Part shown: one piece after another, positions 739-39,720 of the stretch
How the letters are laid out: every line of letters starts with the position of its first letter
How positions within the stretch are numbered: position 1 is the stretch's first letter
Source of the DNA: a virus
Length of the DNA stretch: 47,450 nt
Virus record (IMG/VR): IMGVR_UViG_3300030329_002898
Span: 1 to 47,450 of that record
Direction: 5' to 3' (one strand)
Program-made: the position numbers and the translations under genes
Notes under the pieces: model-generated
The model's database searches: none
What the model saw: the letters and a program-made list of their open reading frames with translations, nothing else
Told to the model about the DNA's origin: nothing

Positions 739-981
739 ATGACATTTGTAGCTTTTTGGTGTGGCTTTATGATAGGCGCTTGTTTTTATGCTTGGAAACA
801 CAATCGAGATCTTGAAGACGTGCGTAATAAATTTGAGCAAAAGTTAATAACAGCTATTCGCGATACTAAAGCACATGCCGAATTATGCAAACATCAAGCT
901 GAATTAAATAAACGTGCTGAGGATGCACTTGACCAGCAAGATAAAATTGTAGAGCGTGTTTTAGGGAAAGTTAGAGCATGA
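739..981 (+). CDS. Small membrane-anchored coiled-coil protein
   Basis: The protein has 80 residues. Residues 1-19 are a hydrophobic N-terminal anchor with Phe, Trp and Cys, and residues 20-80 are a charged, heptad-like helix. The ATG is preceded by an AAGGGGA ribosome site 7 bases upstream, and the stop overlaps the ATG of the large terminase (ATGA, 978-981), so the two are translationally coupled. The shape, one N-terminal membrane helix plus a coiled coil, resembles small spanin or holin-associated proteins, but its place inside the packaging operon gives no direct support for that. Function unknown. Confidence 0.7.
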   Translation: MTFVAFWCGFMIGACFYAWKHNRDLEDVRNKFEQKLITAIRDTKAHAELCKHQAELNKRAEDALDQQDKIVERVLGKVRA

Positions 982-2966
982 TTATAGGCGGCGACTGGTT
1001 AATTGATCAAGTTAATAATTTAACTGATGAAATAACACATATAAAACCATCGACATTTAACGAGCAAAATCGTTATCTACCAGAATCCGTAACCTCTATG
1101 CCTGGATATATTCGTTATGATGTTAACCCATTTATGAGAGAAATAATAGATTGCTTTGATATTAACTCTCCAGTGCGTGAAGTAAATTTAATGAAGGGCG
1201 TACAGATTACTTACTCTACTCTCTTAGAATCTGGCGCTCTTTATTTTATGAAGGAAGTTAAAACTGTTCCTTTAATGTATATGACGGCAGATAAGGAGCT
1301 TGCCGCTGCACGTATAGAGAATAATTTTATTCCTATGATTAATCATTCTGGATTTGCTGATATAATCCGTTCAAGTGATGAGGGTAATGCGAGAAAGTCC
1401 GGTAAAACTCGCGACCATATACAATGGGAAGGCGGCGGTTACATGGTGCCATTTGGGGCCAATAATGCCAATAAAATGCGATCATTTTCAATTATGGTAA
1501 TGCTTAAAGATGAAATTGACGCATGGCCTGAAACAGTAGGTCAAGATGGTGATCCGGATAGCTTAAGTGATGACAGAACATCGGCATATCATGAAAGGAG
1601 AAAAATATTTAGGGGTTCAACCCCTTTGATTTGGGAAAATTCTAAAATAAGAAAGCGTTATGAGGAAGGCGACCAAAGAAAATATTATGTGCTCTGCAAA
1701 CATTGTAATTACCCTCAATATCTAAGATGGAGTGGCAGAAATCAGAGAACCGGTCAAGATTTTGGTTTTGTATGGGAGACTGAAAAAGGCAGATTAGTTA
1801 ATGAATCAGTTCGTTATAAATGCGAGCAATGCGGGACAGAGCATTTTGAACATGATAAGGTAAATCTGTTTTCAGAGGAGCACGGGGCGCACTGGAAGCC
1901 TACTGCAATAGCTAAAAAAGAGCACGTAAGGAGTTATCATATACCGGCCCTATACTCTCCTATAGGTATGCAACCTTGGTATAAATCGGTTCAAGCATAT
2001 TTAGACTCATATGACCCAATATCAAAGCGTGTTAAGGATATAGGTAAATATCAAGTATTTTACAATAACGTTCTTGGTGAGCCTTTTAAAATGCTTGGTA
2101 CTAAGCTTACGACTACAATGGTTAATGCTCATAAGCGTGCAGAGTATAGCCGTGGTAACATACCTCAAGAGTACTCTAAGAAAGTTACTGGCGGCCCAAT
2201 ACTGAATATTACTATGGCGGTGGACGTTCACCAAAAGAGCTTAGATCTTAGTATTATCGGCTGGACTCGCGGCTGTAGATCATTTTTACTGGATTATGAA
2301 TTGATAGAAGCTCCAGAGGGAGAGCCGGACTATGATTGTACAGATGTTAAGTCCCGCGCATGGCCTAGATTAAGGGATATTATAGAAAATAGAAAATATG
2401 ATAATATGGGTATTTCTATTACTCTAATAGACTCAGGATTTGGAAACGATACTGTTTGTTCATTTTGTTCACAATATACAACCGGTGTATATCCTATTAT
2501 AGGTAGAGATAGACCGGCCAAGAGTCAGACTATAAGAGAGTTTGGCGAGTTCGAGACGCAAATAGGCACAAAAGGCTATAGAATAATTGTAGACCATTAT
2601 AAAGATAGATTAGCGCCTACACTTCGCAGAGAATGGGACGATATACAGGGTTTACAGCCTGATTACCATTTTAATGCGCCCGTTGACATGCTTGATAAGG
2701 AAATGAAGGAATTAACGACAGAAAGCAGAAGAAAGAAAACAGATCAATATGGTCGCGTATCTTACTACTGGCATAGGCCGGACGGCTCTAGAAATGAATT
2801 ATGGGATTTGCTCGTCTATAACTCTGCTGCCATAGAAATAATGGCTTATAATTTTTGTATAAATTACCTTGAGGCTGAAACAGTATCATGGGATCTTTGG
2901 TGGGATTATTTAGAGTTTGGTTCTGATTACATCAAAAAGCGACATAAAGAAAGGCCTTATATCTAA
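978..2966 (+). CDS. terL: Terminase large subunit, GpA family
   Basis: At 662 residues this is the usual length for lambda gpA-type large terminases, the ATPase and nuclease that cuts concatemers and drives DNA into the prohead. A deviant Walker A lies at residues 71-80 (Leu-Met-Lys-Gly-Val-Gln-Ile-Thr-Tyr-Ser, compare the lambda gpA form). Walker B with Asp178-Glu179 follows in a hydrophobic strand. Two CxxC pairs (C240/C243 and C282/C285) form the GpA zinc knuckle. The nuclease half starts around residue 415 with Ala-Val-Asp-Val-His and continues with Leu-Ile-Asp-Ser-Gly. GpA terminases normally cut at cos, which suggests cohesive ends. Confidence 0.95.
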   Translation: MIIGGDWLIDQVNNLTDEITHIKPSTFNEQNRYLPESVTSMPGYIRYDVNPFMREIIDCFDINSPVREVNLMKGVQITYSTLLESGALYFMKEVKTVPLMYMTADKELAAARIENNFIPMINHSGFADIIRSSDEGNARKSGKTRDHIQWEGGGYMVPFGANNANKMRSFSIMVMLKDEIDAWPETVGQDGDPDSLSDDRTSAYHERRKIFRGSTPLIWENSKIRKRYEEGDQRKYYVLCKHCNYPQYLRWSGRNQRTGQDFGFVWETEKGRLVNESVRYKCEQCGTEHFEHDKVNLFSEEHGAHWKPTAIAKKEHVRSYHIPALYSPIGMQPWYKSVQAYLDSYDPISKRVKDIGKYQVFYNNVLGEPFKMLGTKLTTTMVNAHKRAEYSRGNIPQEYSKKVTGGPILNITMAVDVHQKSLDLSIIGWTRGCRSFLLDYELIEAPEGEPDYDCTDVKSRAWPRLRDIIENRKYDNMGISITLIDSGFGNDTVCSFCSQYTTGVYPIIGRDRPAKSQTIREFGEFETQIGTKGYRIIVDHYKDRLAPTLRREWDDIQGLQPDYHFNAPVDMLDKEMKELTTESRRKKTDQYGRVSYYWHRPDGSRNELWDLLVYNSAAIEIMAYNFCINYLEAETVSWDLWWDYLEFGSDYIKKRHKERPYI

Positions 2967-33713: not shown

Positions 33714-33874
33714 TCTTTAAGCGGTGGCCCTGTTGGCCTAATTACCCAGCAGAGCGAGGTTTTCTTTCACTGTCCTCCGGCCACCAACGCTTAATCCTAA
33801 TCAGTGAAATAAAAGTGAAAGACAGAAGAAAATTCATAAAAAATATATCTGCCTTTCTCTATTTGGAGAAAAGA
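33714..33874 (+). promoter_or_regulatory. Structured leader RNA: three-way junction plus SD-masking hairpin
   Basis: P1 pairs 33717-33723 with 33888-94-type complement at 33788-33794 (TTAAGCG/CGCTTAA) and, across a CAA bulge, 33724-33729 with 33779-33784 (GTGGCC/GGCCAC). P2 is CTGTTGG (33730-33736) with CCAGCAG (33746-33752). P3 is GAGG (33756-33759) with CCTC (33774-33777), with a 14-base loop. The loop stretch TCTTTCACT (33763-33771) is complementary to AGTGAAAGA (33814-33822), and TTTCACTG (33765-33772) to CAGTGAAA (33802-33809). A further hairpin TTTCTC/GAGAAA (33854-33859 with 33866-33871) covers the GGAG ribosome site of the next gene. It matches no RNA family that I know and is probably a translational switch. 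All pairings were found by eye. Confidence 0.65.
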
Positions 33875-34483
33875 ATGTCATTCAAATTAATGGCTCAAGC
33901 GATGGACATAAAAACAGGTTCATCGACTACTAAATTAGTTCTGTTAAAGCTTTGTGATAATGCCAATGATCAAGGTATATGCTGGCCTTCACAAGATACT
34001 ATTGCAGAGCAATGTGAGATTTCTAAAAGAACGGTTGTATCTACAATTAAGAAGCTGGAAGAAATGGGTATTATTGCCATAGAAAAAAAGTGTAAAAACG
34101 GCAACAAATATCTGATAAATCTTAAAAGTGAAAAAATTGCACCTTTAGAAACAGAAGTGCAAAATCTGCACTCTAAAAGTGAAAATTCTGCACTTTTCAT
34201 AAGAACCTATAAAGAACCTACCAAGAAAAAATATATTAAAAAAGATTTGCCTGAAAGAGAAAAAGACTTTGAGCAATTAGTAAAAGAAACTTGGCAAGAT
34301 ATGGGAGGGGAATCATTCCTGCCAATACTAGAGGCACAAAAATTCTTTTTATACTGGTCTGAGTCAAACGGAAAAAAACTATTGTTTGAAAGGCAACAAA
34401 CTTTCGACATCCGAAAAAGATTCAAGAGATGGCAACTAAATAATTTTAACCAATCAAAGCCGCAAGGCAGAAACAACGCATAA
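33875..34483 (+). CDS. HTH_36-type replication-associated DNA-binding protein
   Basis: The ATG at 33875 has GGAG six bases upstream and gives 202 residues; a GTG at 33815 is in frame but lies inside the leader structure and lacks a site. The N-terminal 70 residues fit the HTH_36 pattern (Thr-Lys-Leu-Val-Leu-Leu-Lys-Leu-Cys-Asp-Asn-Ala-Asn-Asp, Cys-Trp-Pro-Ser-Gln-Asp-Thr-Ile-Ala, Ser-Lys-Arg-Thr-Val). The remainder is helical with Phe-Phe-Leu-Tyr-Trp-Ser-Glu-Ser-Asn-Gly-Lys. In phages such proteins lie before replication genes and act as replisome organisers or initiators. It is the first gene behind the consensus promoter. Confidence 0.8.
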   Translation: MSFKLMAQAMDIKTGSSTTKLVLLKLCDNANDQGICWPSQDTIAEQCEISKRTVVSTIKKLEEMGIIAIEKKCKNGNKYLINLKSEKIAPLETEVQNLHSKSENSALFIRTYKEPTKKKYIKKDLPEREKDFEQLVKETWQDMGGESFLPILEAQKFFLYWSESNGKKLLFERQQTFDIRKRFKRWQLNNFNQSKPQGRNNA

Positions 34484-34503: not shown

Positions 34504-35565
34504 ATGAAAGTAAACAGCAAACAACTATTAGCGGCACTCAAAAAGCTAAGTGGAGCTATCAATAATCCATCAGTCCCAGTACTGGCTAATGTCAGAATTA
34601 TAACAGGATTAGATCAAGTTAATTTAATTGGCACTAACCTAAATCAAACTATCAAGGTAATTTTGCCATGTGAAGTTAAGACTCAGATTGACACCACAAT
34701 CAATTTTAAGCGCCTCACGGCCATTTGTTCACAGTTGGCGGATGATTATATACAAATGTCAATTAAGGACGACACAGCGGCTTTAAAATGTGGCAAATCT
34801 AAATTTAAACTCGCTTGTATTAACTCCGATCAATGGCCGATTGATAATTTAGATGGCGACTATAAAGAGATAACTTTGGATTATAAGACATTCAGAGATC
34901 AAGTAAACCAAGTATTTTACTCAGCCTCAAAAGATGAATCAAGACCGGTTTTAAATGGTATTTTATTTGAGGTCAAAGAACGCGATTTTAATACAGTCGC
35001 TACTGATGGTAAAAGGCTGGCTATATCTTCAGTATATGGAATGCAGCAAGAAGATTTAAACCTATCCTTTATTTGCCCGGTGAATGTATTAATAGATATA
35101 ACTAGGCATGCATCAGACTACATAAACTTAAAGATTTATGATTCTAAATTATCGGTTAAGTCAGGCAATTATGAAGTGACAACAAAGTTAATTGAGGGTA
35201 ATTATCCAAATTATTCTCAGATTATTCCTGGAAAATTTACAGGTAAATTGCACATCAACAGAGTCGCGTTATTAGATGCCGTTCAACGTGTGGCATTAAT
35301 ATTAGACAATATAAACGAAGGTATAAAACTCGTATTTGCCGGTAATGAATTACACGTAACAGCTCAAACACATGATAGCGCGCAAGAGACTATTTTAATT
35401 GAGAGTGATACAAATGCGGAGTTTAGTTTCAATCCTGCATTTTTAGTAGATGTACTAAAGAACTTAGATTCAGATCATGTAATGCTAAATTACACTGACA
35501 GCATATCACCTACGCTAATCAGCGCATACAATCTAAAATATATTTTAATGCCAATGAGAGGGTAA
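34504..35565 (+). CDS. dnaN: DNA polymerase III beta sliding clamp (DnaN-like)
   Basis: 353 residues, full length for a bacterial beta clamp. Three repeated domains can be followed, with Ser-Val-Pro-Val-Leu-Ala-Asn-Val near residue 25, Ser-Arg-Pro-Val-Leu-Asn-Gly-Ile-Leu-Phe-Glu at about 152, Ala-Thr-Asp-Gly-Lys-Arg-Leu-Ala at about 168, Glu-Gly-Asn-Tyr-Pro-Asn-Tyr at about 233, and the closing Met-Pro-Met-Arg. The clamp is a dimeric ring that tethers polymerase and other proteins to DNA. No DNA polymerase is encoded here, so the clamp would serve a host enzyme or phage proteins. It lies three bases before a gene whose product ends in a clamp-binding motif. Confidence 0.93.
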   Translation: MKVNSKQLLAALKKLSGAINNPSVPVLANVRIITGLDQVNLIGTNLNQTIKVILPCEVKTQIDTTINFKRLTAICSQLADDYIQMSIKDDTAALKCGKSKFKLACINSDQWPIDNLDGDYKEITLDYKTFRDQVNQVFYSASKDESRPVLNGILFEVKERDFNTVATDGKRLAISSVYGMQQEDLNLSFICPVNVLIDITRHASDYINLKIYDSKLSVKSGNYEVTTKLIEGNYPNYSQIIPGKFTGKLHINRVALLDAVQRVALILDNINEGIKLVFAGNELHVTAQTHDSAQETILIESDTNAEFSFNPAFLVDVLKNLDSDHVMLNYTDSISPTLISAYNLKYILMPMRG

Positions 35566-35567
35566 TC

Positions 35568-37760
35568 ATGGATTATCAGGAATTTATAGAGTCGAAAGCA
35601 AATACATTTATTAACTCAGGTTTTGATATTGATGATCGTGATTTAAATGAAAATTTATTCGACTTTCAAAAATATACGGTAAAGATTGCGCTTAAAAAGG
35701 GTAGGTTTGCCATATTTGCTGATTGTGGTTTAGGTAAGACTATTCAACAGTTGGAATGGGCTAATCAAGTAAATAAATATACCAACAAGCCAGTTCTTGT
35801 ATTGGCCCCATTAGCTGTTGTTCAACAAACTATTAATGAAGGTCAGTCTTTTGGTATTGGTGTTCATCCACTAGGTTATGATAGCCCTATAGAAATATCT
35901 AACTATGATCAATTAGATAATATTGACTGTAGTAAATATTCTGGTGTTGTTTTAGATGAAAGTAGCATTCTAAAAGGAAAGGACTCTAAGACAAAAAATA
36001 AGTTATTTAAGTATTTTAAAGACACTCCATATAAATTATGCTGTACTGCTACACCATCTCCTAATGATCATACTGAATTAGGTAATCATGCGGAGTTTCT
36101 GGGAATTATGAAATACCTCGAAATGCTTGCTATGTACTTTGTTCATGATGGTGGAGAAACATCAAAATGGAGACTAAGGAAGCATGCTCAAGATGACTTC
36201 TGGAAGTTCGTATGTACATGGTCTATTTCTATAGATAACCCCAAAACATTAGGTTTCTGTGGTCAAAATTATCAGCTCCCAGAGATTAATTATATTGAGC
36301 ACATTATAGAAACAAATAAGGATGATGGATTATTATTTAGAGATGGCATAGTTTCAGCTACTGATCTTCATAAAGATCTGCGATTAACAATGGATTTAAG
36401 AGTATCTAAAGTTGCTGATATAGTAAATAACTCAGATGATCAGTGGATTATTTGGGGACTTCAAAATGCAGAGACTGATAAACTTAAAAAAGTAATTAAT
36501 AATTCCGTTAATGTGCAAGGATCAGATAAACCTGAAATAAAAGCTAAAAACTTAAATGGCTTCGCTGATAATGAATTTCAAAATCTGATTACCAAAACAA
36601 GCATCGCCAGTTTTGGTATGAATTACCAGAATTGTCATAATATGATATTTTGCTCTTATGATTTTAAATTTGAGGCATTTTACCAAGCTGTTAGGAGATG
36701 TTATAGATTTGGACAATCAAATAATGTTAATGTACATATTATAATCCCTGATACTCAATCTAATGTCAGGAAATCAATACTAGAAAAAGAGCAGAAGCAT
36801 AAAGAAATGATAAATCATATGTCTATGTATTCTGCTGATGCTGACTATTCAATAACTAAAAACCAAAAACCAATATCTAAAGAAATTAAAAAGGATGACT
36901 ACTGGATTATGAATGGCGACTGTGTACAAGAAATAAAAAATATTGAAGATGAAAGCGTTCATTTAACTGTGTTTTCTCCGCCATTTGCGGAATTATATGT
37001 TTATTCAGATAAATCAGAGGATATGGGTAACGTATCAAGTTATGATCAGTTTTGTGACCATTTTAAATATTTATTACCTGAATTAAATAGGATTATGAAA
37101 TCAGGTAGAATTGCAGCTATGCACTGTATGGATGTACCACTACAAAAAGGTAAAGATGGAGTTATTGGTCTTCGTGACTTCTCAGGCATGCTTGTTCAGA
37201 TGATGGCAGAAAATGGATTTATATATCATGCTAGAACAACAATATGGAAAAATCCAGTAACTGAAATGCAGAGGACTAAAGCACTTGGACTGCTGCATAA
37301 GCAGATTAAAAAAGACAGCTCCATGAGTCGTGTTGGAATTCCTGATTATATTTTATTCTTCAGAAAAGAAGGGGAAAATATAGAGCCAATTACTCATCAG
37401 GTTGATGATCCATCTAAGCCAGATTATTTGCCAGTAGATCTATGGCAGAAATATGCTAGTCCAGTTTGGTATGATATTGATTATTCAAGGACTCTTAATT
37501 ACAGATCAGGAAGGGATGATAATGACGAAAAGCATATATGCCCACTCCAATTAGATACAATTAATAGAATACTTCACCTATACTCAAATGAAGGTGATAC
37601 AGTTTTTACCCCATTTATGGGTATTGGATCTGAAGTATATGAAAGTATAAAGCAGAATAGGAAAGCTATCGGTATAGAGCTAAAACCTTCATATTTCAAT
37701 TTGGCATCAAATAATATTGAAACTGCTGTAAAAGAATCAAACCAACTAACATTATTCTAA
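35568..37760 (+). CDS. SNF2/DEAD-type helicase fused to beta-class DNA methyltransferase, with C-terminal clamp-binding motif
   Basis: 730 residues. The helicase part (about 25-425) has Walker A Gly54-Leu-Gly-Lys-Thr58, Asp130-Glu-Ser-Ser for motif II, Thr-Ala-Thr-Pro (160-163) for motif III, and Gln373-Ala-Val-Arg-Arg-Cys-Tyr-Arg-Phe-Gly-Gln383 for motif VI. The methyltransferase part (445-720) has motif IV Ser470-Pro-Pro-Phe and motif I Phe-Met-Gly-Ile-Gly (683-687). The IV-before-I order is beta class, which makes N6-methyladenine or N4-methylcytosine. The last five residues, Gln-Leu-Thr-Leu-Phe (726-730), match the beta-clamp-binding consensus. The gene follows the phage clamp by three bases. 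It could couple methylation to replication. No restriction subunit is seen. Confidence 0.9.
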   Translation: MDYQEFIESKANTFINSGFDIDDRDLNENLFDFQKYTVKIALKKGRFAIFADCGLGKTIQQLEWANQVNKYTNKPVLVLAPLAVVQQTINEGQSFGIGVHPLGYDSPIEISNYDQLDNIDCSKYSGVVLDESSILKGKDSKTKNKLFKYFKDTPYKLCCTATPSPNDHTELGNHAEFLGIMKYLEMLAMYFVHDGGETSKWRLRKHAQDDFWKFVCTWSISIDNPKTLGFCGQNYQLPEINYIEHIIETNKDDGLLFRDGIVSATDLHKDLRLTMDLRVSKVADIVNNSDDQWIIWGLQNAETDKLKKVINNSVNVQGSDKPEIKAKNLNGFADNEFQNLITKTSIASFGMNYQNCHNMIFCSYDFKFEAFYQAVRRCYRFGQSNNVNVHIIIPDTQSNVRKSILEKEQKHKEMINHMSMYSADADYSITKNQKPISKEIKKDDYWIMNGDCVQEIKNIEDESVHLTVFSPPFAELYVYSDKSEDMGNVSSYDQFCDHFKYLLPELNRIMKSGRIAAMHCMDVPLQKGKDGVIGLRDFSGMLVQMMAENGFIYHARTTIWKNPVTEMQRTKALGLLHKQIKKDSSMSRVGIPDYILFFRKEGENIEPITHQVDDPSKPDYLPVDLWQKYASPVWYDIDYSRTLNYRSGRDDNDEKHICPLQLDTINRILHLYSNEGDTVFTPFMGIGSEVYESIKQNRKAIGIELKPSYFNLASNNIETAVKESNQLTLF

Positions 37761-38024
37761 ATGCAATCCAAAAAACAGAGCTTTAAAGAGTCTGTTGTTA
37801 ATGTGGCCGTGGGTTATGCTGTCGCATTAATTAGCCAGTTGATTGTATTTCCTATTGTTGGAGTACAATCAACATTTACTCAAAATATAAAAATCAGCCT
37901 TTATTTTACAATTATTTCTTTAATTCGTAGCTACCTAATAAGGCGATATTTTAACAAAAGTGAAAGCCATGGATTATCAAAGTTTAGGGATAGATATAAG
38001 ATCAAGCGGTCAACACAAAACTAA
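37761..38024 (+). CDS. Small inner-membrane protein (conserved phage type, 87 aa)
   Basis: The ATG follows the previous stop directly. 87 residues with two hydrophobic helices (about 14-33 and 45-60) and a Ser-Tyr-Leu-Ile-Arg-Arg-Tyr-Phe-Asn motif followed by a basic tail. I recall this Arg-Ser-Tyr-x-Ile-Arg-Arg arrangement from small membrane proteins found in many phages near replication genes, of unknown function. The last 56 bases overlap the primase-helicase. Confidence 0.72.
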   Translation: MQSKKQSFKESVVNVAVGYAVALISQLIVFPIVGVQSTFTQNIKISLYFTIISLIRSYLIRRYFNKSESHGLSKFRDRYKIKRSTQN

Positions 38025-39720
38025 ATGCCCCAATTGCCCCAAATTAGGAAAAAGATCAACAGAAAGTTTAAGCGTTGATCCTTCAAGAAATATTTTTAAC
38101 TGTCATAAATGCGGATGGAATAACGGCCATGTTACTCAATTAAATAATAACTATATTCCACAGCCGCCTAAGCCAAAAAAACAAGGTGAGTATAGGCCGA
38201 GTGAATTAAGAGATCTTAAACCCGCTGAATTAGCTTTTTTTGAAAATAGGTCAATAAGCGAAGGAACTTTATTCAAGGCAGGGGTTAGAGGATGTACGCG
38301 CTGGATGCCACAAGTAAAAGGCGAATGTGATGTACTGGCTTTTCAGTTCATTAAATCAAATAAGAGAGTTAATACCAAGTACAGAAATGCCAATAAAGAT
38401 ATGTCCCAAGATGCCAACGCCGAAAAGTGTTTTTATAACTATGAGGCATTAGAAAGAAAACCAGTGCGTATTTACATCACTGAGGGAGAAATAGACGCAC
38501 TGACATTAATGGAAGTTAATTTTAAAGATGTTGTCAGCGTACCAGATGGAGCGCCAAACCCAACAGCTAACAATCTTGATAATAAGTTTTCATACTTTAC
38601 TGAAGAGGCTATGGCGCTATTTGATGAGATTCAAGAAATTGTACTTGTTACAGATAATGACGAGAATGGTCGATTTTTAGAATCAGAGCTTAGGCGGCGC
38701 TTAGGTATAGATAAATGTTTGTTTATTCAATATCCTGAAGGATGCAAAGATATAAACGATGTATTGGTTAAAGAAGGGCCGGAAGCTGTAGAAGATGTTT
38801 TGGAAAATGCAAAGCATTATCCTGTAGACGGTTTACATACATTCGCTGATTATAAGCCTCAGATAATTGATATGTTCAATGGTGTTCAAGAGAATTATTG
38901 GACTACTGGCTATCCTCATTTTGATAAGCATCTTAAAATCAAAACAGGTCAATTAAACATTGTAACTGGTACACCTGGCAGTGGTAAATCAGAGCTTATT
39001 GATGATGTAATGATAAATACTATCATGAAAGATGGTGCAAAATGGGCTGTATTCAGTCCTGAGAATTACCCGCCAAAGGTTTACTTTAGAAAGCTGGCAG
39101 AGAAATACGAGAATAAGAATTTTAATGAGTTCACAGAGGCAACGTTAAATAATTCAATAAATGAGCTTAGCAATAATATTCATCTAATTGTTGATAACGA
39201 TAAGGATGATGTGACTCTCGATTATTTATTTGAGAGAATAAGAACTCTTGTGTTTAGGCAGGGTATAAAAGGAGTAATAATAGACCCTTGGAATGAAATA
39301 AGCCACAATATAGGCTCACGTGAAGATCAGTATTTAGCTAAAGAGCTTCGAAAGATTAAGAGGTTTATCAGGAAATATGATTTATCAATGTGGGTTATAG
39401 CGCACCCACGTAACCCCTCACGTGATAAAGATGGCAATTACAATAAAATAACAGCTTATGACATTGCCGGTGGTTATACATGGAACGCCAAAGCAGACAA
39501 TATTTTTTCAGTTTGGAGAGATCGCCAGGATAAAAAAAAGCCTGTTGAGGTGGATATACTCAAGATAAAGTATAAGACCGATGGTGAACTAGGGACGTGT
39601 AAGTTTTGGTATCAATATTCAACCGGTAAGTTTCAGAGCTGCGGAAGTTCTTTAGATGATCCAACAGACGTAGAGGACAAGGGCGGAGCAACAGTTAATG
39701 GACAATGGAGCGAGATATGA
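37969..39720 (+). CDS. Primase-helicase (T7 gp4-like: zinc finger, TOPRIM, DnaB-type helicase)
   Basis: 583 residues from ATG 37969; a GTG at 37960 would add three residues. The zinc-binding primase head has C20/C23 and C45/C48. The TOPRIM domain carries Glu172-Gly-Glu174-Ile-Asp and Thr-Asp229-Asn-Asp-Glu-Asn-Gly. The helicase core has Walker A Gly334-Thr-Pro-Gly-Ser-Gly-Lys-Ser341 and a Walker B Gly-Val-Ile-Ile-Asp-Pro-Trp-Asn. It opens DNA and makes RNA primers at the phage fork. The start overlaps the membrane-protein gene by 56 bp, and the stop overlaps the next ATG. Confidence 0.93.
   Translation: MDYQSLGIDIRSSGQHKTKCPNCPKLGKRSTESLSVDPSRNIFNCHKCGWNNGHVTQLNNNYIPQPPKPKKQGEYRPSELRDLKPAELAFFENRSISEGTLFKAGVRGCTRWMPQVKGECDVLAFQFIKSNKRVNTKYRNANKDMSQDANAEKCFYNYEALERKPVRIYITEGEIDALTLMEVNFKDVVSVPDGAPNPTANNLDNKFSYFTEEAMALFDEIQEIVLVTDNDENGRFLESELRRRLGIDKCLFIQYPEGCKDINDVLVKEGPEAVEDVLENAKHYPVDGLHTFADYKPQIIDMFNGVQENYWTTGYPHFDKHLKIKTGQLNIVTGTPGSGKSELIDDVMINTIMKDGAKWAVFSPENYPPKVYFRKLAEKYENKNFNEFTEATLNNSINELSNNIHLIVDNDKDDVTLDYLFERIRTLVFRQGIKGVIIDPWNEISHNIGSREDQYLAKELRKIKRFIRKYDLSMWVIAHPRNPSRDKDGNYNKITAYDIAGGYTWNAKADNIFSVWRDRQDKKKPVEVDILKIKYKTDGELGTCKFWYQYSTGKFQSCGSSLDDPTDVEDKGGATVNGQWSEI

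Follow-up and report, generated by a model that had tools for sequence, protein, structure and literature searches.

The clamp and helicase-methyltransferase locus

The window, by which we mean the whole stretch of DNA analyzed here, comprises all 47,450 bases of IMG/VR record IMGVR_UViG_3300030329_002898, a linear sequence without end repeats. Its replication module, encoded on the plus strand, runs from an O-like initiator through a sliding clamp, a helicase-methyltransferase, and a small protein to a primase/DnaB-like helicase. The initiator (33815-34483, 222 aa), which is O-like with a DnaD-N-like HTH, was recognized from PHROG replication initiation (E 1e-26) and from Pfam HTH_36 and DnaD_N. 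The small protein (37761-38024) belongs to DUF7220 (PF23858, E 1.3e-29), and the primase/DnaB-like replicative helicase (37960-39720) combines Toprim and DnaB_C in Pfam and matches phrog_239 (E 6e-86). Near this module, an ORF at 40813-41676 matches a phage phosphoadenosine phosphosulfate reductase family (phrog_424) and could bear on DNA modification.

The initial annotation described a full DnaN-type clamp, and this description holds. The ORF at 34504-35565 (353 aa) matches all three DNA_pol3_beta Pfam domains (E 5.5e-28, 3.8e-23, and 1.5e-18) as well as phrog_947 (E 8e-67), and it aligned over its full length with E. coli-type clamps in the PDB sequence match (E 1e-34). In Foldseek, its AF2 model (pLDDT 91) superposed on complexes of E. 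coli beta with peptides at TM 0.9. The clamp ends in MPMRG, compared with MPMRL in E. coli. In an alignment with Enterobacteriaceae-type clamps that was read by eye, the pocket retains T172, G174, R176, L177, P242, N320, M362, P363, M364, and R365 (E. coli numbering); the changes, read in the same way, are the conservative V247I, V344I, V360I, and Y323F, along with H175K and R246Q. On this alignment, the window clamp appears to keep the peptide-binding pocket, including the C-terminal MPMR.

The next gene (35568-37760) encodes a 730-aa SNF2-type helicase fused to a beta-class N4/N6 DNA methyltransferase. It was said to lie directly downstream of the clamp at a distance of 3 bp; the adjacency is correct but the spacing is 2 bp, with the TAA stop of the clamp ending at 35565 and the ATG of the enzyme at 35568. 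The protein matches SNF2-related, Helicase_C, and N6_N4_Mtase in Pfam and phrog_16 in PHROGs. Foldseek matched the motor half of the AF2 model (pLDDT 86) to SNF2 remodellers and the other half to the Thermus methylase TTHA0409. Across 70 homologues, invariant or nearly invariant residues were found both in the motor (Walker A GLGKT with G54, G56, and K57; D130-E131-S132; motif VI Q373/R377/R380) and in the methylase (motif IV S470-x-P472-F473; motif I G685). By these features, the product has the makeup of an SNF2-methylase dyad (phrog_16) with intact catalytic motifs.

No DNA polymerase was found when the ten largest ORFs and other structural or early ORFs were compared with Pfam and PHROGs, nor in a direct DNA_pol_B search. 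The description of the phage as lacking a polymerase is thus upheld for the scanned ORFs of a linear contig that is possibly incomplete. Because no polymerase was found among these ORFs, the simplest reading is that the phage relies on host Pol III, again with the proviso that the contig may be incomplete. The nearest relatives in the terminase comparison are Shewanella phage SppYZU01 (64%) and Acinetobacter phage Scuro (58%), which makes a gammaproteobacterial host likely. SppYZU01 (KY622015.1, compared over window positions 978-2966) has an annotated DNA polymerase, and the window seems to have a different replication module from this relative, polymerase-less and with its own clamp.

A clamp-binding-like peptide at the enzyme C-terminus

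Gln-Leu-Thr-Leu-Phe had been reported as the last five residues of the 730-residue enzyme, and the sequence does end in KESNQLTLF, with QLTLF (residues 726-730) encoded at 37743-37757. In the AF2 model, the final helix spans residues 707-725 and the five terminal residues are coil. The peptide thus fits Q-[aliphatic]-x-[LM]-[FL] in a segment that is accessible in the model, past the last helix and with a variable linker. Published clamp-binding peptides follow the consensus QL(S/D)LF, in which Leu/Phe anchors the pocket, and Gln is a strong contributor yet dispensable, as in AMSLF of the delta subunit (PMC11139829). The window has 143 stop-closed frames of at least 60 aa, and just one plausible gene among them, that of the helicase-methyltransferase, has Q..[LIM][FLIM] at most 6 aa from its end; the remaining four such frames lie on the minus strand amid plus-strand genes.

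We evaluated the tail, defined as the region after the conserved ELKxSY block, in homologues collected from named phages, IMG/VR, and GTDB genomes and reduced to 111 representatives less than 80% identical to one another, with shuffled tails as the null. Q..LF occurred in 54 of the 111 tails (shuffle mean 0.8, maximum 5), and Q.[STD]L[FLIM] likewise in 54 (shuffle 0.6, maximum 3). A motif score of at least 7 was reached by 67% of tails and by 3% of shuffles. Information content was high only for Q, L, and F at pentapeptide positions 1, 4, and 5; L was favoured at position 2 and S/T at position 3. Since this measure is inflated when each tail is anchored on its best match, the shuffles were scored identically. 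The family profile that emerges, Q-[L]-[ST]-L-F, coincides with the established consensus for clamp binding, in agreement with the proposal that the window tail matches the beta-clamp-binding pentapeptide. As a control read by eye, Q..LF was found near the end of 2 of 28 unrelated Bacteroidota PF01555 methyltransferases.

These comparisons support a real and selected motif of putative clamp-binding type in the family; short linear motifs invite over-interpretation, but the family statistics leave chance as a very unlikely explanation. Members that lack Gln mostly retain LTLF or PSLF, and some have no recognisable motif. Actinobacteriophage members, including the clamp-bearing Arthrobacter phages, end in PSLF or PSLL and have no Gln. 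Retention of the tag solely through descent was also considered and rejected, because the linker differs in sequence among members and entire tails have been rewritten while Q and L persist.

Clamp genes and tail types across homologues

Only a minority of the family has a clamp gene close by: after dereplication, 93 rows could be scored, and 10 of them had one. A methylase-domain tree built with FastTree has 9 changes in the clamp-neighbour state, with gain and loss indistinguishable and some branches weak. The arrangement differs among lineages: the clamp is directly upstream of the enzyme in the window and in L048, L059, L063, and L185, between the split methylase and helicase genes in Alteromonas XX1924, one gene downstream in Arthrobacter phages and L267, and on the opposite strand at a distance of about 3 kb in L108-L144. 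In a Hymenobacter contig (L261:3012-5479), two consecutive clamp-like ORFs precede the helicase-methylase and may represent a duplicated clamp or a heterodimeric one. The clamp of the so-called Acinetobacter phage MD-2021a was dropped as a phage clamp, the segment being host dnaA-dnaN-recF-gyrB; the record (CAKLQH020000026.1, our L446) contains host rpmH-dnaA-dnaN-recF-gyrB and is therefore at least partly chromosome. Relatives of the window clamp were not found when viral sequences were scanned with it.

Tails in the clamp-positive lineages are QLTLF, QTELF, QHLLF/QILLF, QMSLF, QMTIW, QLTLF, and QGELV, and the only types without Gln are the two from Arthrobacter (PSLF and PSLL). Conservation of the motif beside a clamp, on which the initial annotation had staked its reading, was borne out by this survey, with most such homologues keeping Q..L. 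The tag is, however, equally present where no clamp gene is in reach, as in the Flavobacterium phages FCV-1 (65% identical) and snusmum and in many contigs with several kilobases of flank on each side. We therefore rejected the idea of a tag adapted specifically to the phage clamp. The earlier claim that the phage clamp carries the enzyme stands in part: the selected tag, the retained pocket, and the location in a replication module all agree with it, but a tag peculiar to the phage clamp does not. The distribution of the tag among homologues without a clamp gene makes the host clamp the likely ancestral default partner. The putative clamp tag is, from the tails compared here, a property of the whole family and not of the clamp-methylase pair in the window alone.

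One clade, for which S-CBS3-related cyanophages form the outgroup, has members that differ in both clamp and tail. Its clamp-bearing contigs end in SVESHKQGELV and its clamp-less contigs in NDCEATTQAALL, on bodies that are 97.5% identical, and Q and L are the residues retained between the two tails. Clamp state and tail type were concordant in 34 of 36 rows of this clade, but only 1-3 independent events underlie the apparent correlation between clamp loss and tail change, which for that reason is an illustration without statistical weight.

Archaeal homologues have tails that resemble the PCNA-interacting PIP box, a Qxx[I/L]xxFF-type motif (PMC9690074). The tail of L278, from a Euryarchaeota MAG in which we saw neither PCNA nor DnaN, is QTQLQTFL, a full match to Qxx[LIM]xx[FWY][FWYL]. 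The other archaeal-type tails agree with the PIP box at Q1, L4, and F7, and of the two last positions of the pattern L005, L334, and L370 have only the F at position 7: QQRLDDFT in L370 (74% identical to L278), QASLFTFG in Methanosarcinales virus vir525, and QASLLSFE in L334, whose genome has PCNA and no DnaN match. This pattern is only suggestive of PIP-box-like tails, because several bacterial members likewise have an aromatic residue at position 7. A clean switch of motif between archaea and bacteria was only partly upheld, since several Clostridia-assigned members also show PIP-like spacing (GQMSIEDFLG) and the archaeal sample is four. PIP-box-looking tails similar to GQMSIEDFLG were seen in L265, L326, L327, and L329, mostly from gut contigs; the MAGs among them carry bacterial labels (Lachnospiraceae, Bacteroides, or Alphaproteobacteria), and one member comes from a lemur-faeces virus. 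The archaeal homologue in genome G308 (L334 and L339) is interrupted between the motor and the rest of the protein by an insertion of about 600 bases, which may be an intein, an intron, or an insertion element.

Proposed clamp tethering, its alternatives, and known systems

Our preferred reading, to which we assign a probability of roughly two in three, is that the product is a phage SNF2-translocase/DNA-methyltransferase that is tethered through QLTLF to a sliding clamp, either phage or host DnaN, and methylates fresh phage DNA, likely as a measure against restriction. QLTLF would dock in the hydrophobic pocket of the clamp, and the clamp, whether host DnaN or a phage DnaN that the host's loader puts in place, would keep the enzyme on newly replicated phage DNA. 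ATP-driven translocation by the SNF2 part together with methyl transfer could then modify the DNA during synthesis, and the modification would most likely shield it from host restriction or another sequence-reading defence. In the window phage, the neighbouring clamp gene, which is probably co-transcribed, makes the phage clamp a plausible preferred partner. We infer clamp binding, clamp choice, phage DNA methylation, and protection; for protection, the grounds are the general role of phage methylases and the proposal made for the SNF2-methylase dyads (PMC5512222).

If this reading is correct, a methylase riding the clamp is how phage DNA becomes modified before restriction enzymes meet it, and it supplies one reason for a phage without a polymerase to carry its own clamp. 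The clients of the clamp would then include a very widespread phage family that is annotated merely as helicase or DNA methylase. In a broader version, clamp-tethered SNF2-methyltransferases would form a class that spans the viruses of bacteria and archaea, a counterpart to DNMT1 and PCNA, in which the tail is matched to the available clamp (host DnaN, phage DnaN, or archaeal PCNA) and modification takes place at the fork. We hold this version tentatively, at a little short of even odds. If true, it would offer a natural test of clamp-peptide co-evolution, with the DnaN tag set against the PIP box and the phage clamp against the host clamp.

The strongest competing explanation is that the tag binds mainly the host clamp and that the phage clamp has its own, separate part in replication, such as replacing the clamp used by host Pol III, its adjacency to the enzyme being incidental to the module. 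It gains from the motif in FCV-1 and the many well-flanked contigs with no clamp in reach, and from other phage clamps that have no helicase-methylase nearby. Incidental adjacency sits less easily with a clamp neighbour that accounts for about nine separate changes on the tree of this family, whereas only 142 of 50,697 phage records matched the window clamp, a figure from one query only. The coincidence of clamp loss and tail rewriting in the QGELV clade also counts against it. We regard this explanation as a real possibility, though one we would not bet on.

It is unlikely that the tether serves the SNF2 motor in the first place, so that a translocase is placed at forks where it strips host proteins or aids restart, with methylation secondary. 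The SNF2 part is conserved together with the methylase and its nearest folds are SNF2 remodellers, but the active-site residues of the methyltransferase are equally invariant, and where the two activities are split between genes (XX1924 and snusmum) the motif is on the methylase polypeptide and not on the helicase. Less probable still is a C-terminal LF that acts as a structural or other protein-protein element and resembles the clamp consensus by convergence. Many members with LF and no Gln (PSLFD, STLTLF) would suit such an element, but the profile Q-L-[ST]-L-F is reproduced across the family, the peptide is a coil outside the fold, the motif is rare in other methyltransferases, and the archaeal-type members move to PIP-box spacing. 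We consider it very improbable that the enzyme is a clamp poison that binds the host clamp and halts host replication, even though phage clamp inhibitors such as Twort gp168 are known (PMC11139829) and an own clamp would permit the phage to escape, since all catalytic motifs of the enzyme are conserved, gp168 is listed as acting at the DNA channel and not at the peptide pocket (PMC11139829), and a phage clamp that could offer escape is out of reach in most homologues.

The tethered dyad that we favour has several partial precedents. SWI2/SNF2 ATPase-DNA methylase dyads are known from phages and mobile elements, with DarB of phage P1 as the archetype (Iyer et al. 2017, PMC5512222). They share with the window enzyme the pairing of two domains in one polypeptide or in adjacent genes, occur in phages and plasmids, and were proposed to modify invading DNA against restriction; that report makes no mention of a clamp. 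DarB, however, is carried in the virion and acts on DNA after injection, whereas the window gene lies in a replication module and its product has a C-terminal clamp-type tag; this position argues against packaging of the DarB type. M.EcoGIX and M.BceJIII are replication-coupled methyltransferases of mobile elements for which protection of incoming DNA was likewise suggested (Fomenkov et al. 2020, PMC7736820), but they are described as acting on single strands and associating with DNA Pol I, with no SNF2 domain in the description, and a sliding clamp is raised for them only as a possible intermediary (PMC7736820). In eukaryotes, DNMT1 has a PCNA-binding motif, and this sliding clamp recruits it to DNA that has been replicated (PMC9690074); this is an analogy only, DNMT1 being a cytosine-5 maintenance enzyme of an unrelated fold class that uses PCNA and not DnaN. 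The peptide itself is of the QL[S/D]LF type found in Pol II, Pol IV, MutL, and Hda, often at the extreme C-terminus (PMC11139829), but no DNA methyltransferase is among the clamp-binding proteins in that paper, in which "methyl" has no occurrences.

The SNF2-methylase dyad and replication-associated methylases are thus already known, and we found no description of clamp tethering of the dyad family. In a search of open-access journal papers, we found no report of a clamp-binding motif in this family or in any other methyltransferase of bacteria or phages, and the Giles host-interaction paper reports no clamp contact. A few standalone beta-class methyltransferases outside the family also have clamp-like ends, namely QQSLFKP, SQLRMF, QQVLFEPS, and QLRLFEAQ (L253:3315-4001, L202:10003-10698, L349, and L360). 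Because of these peptides, tethering of methylases to the clamp may be wider than the SNF2 fusions.
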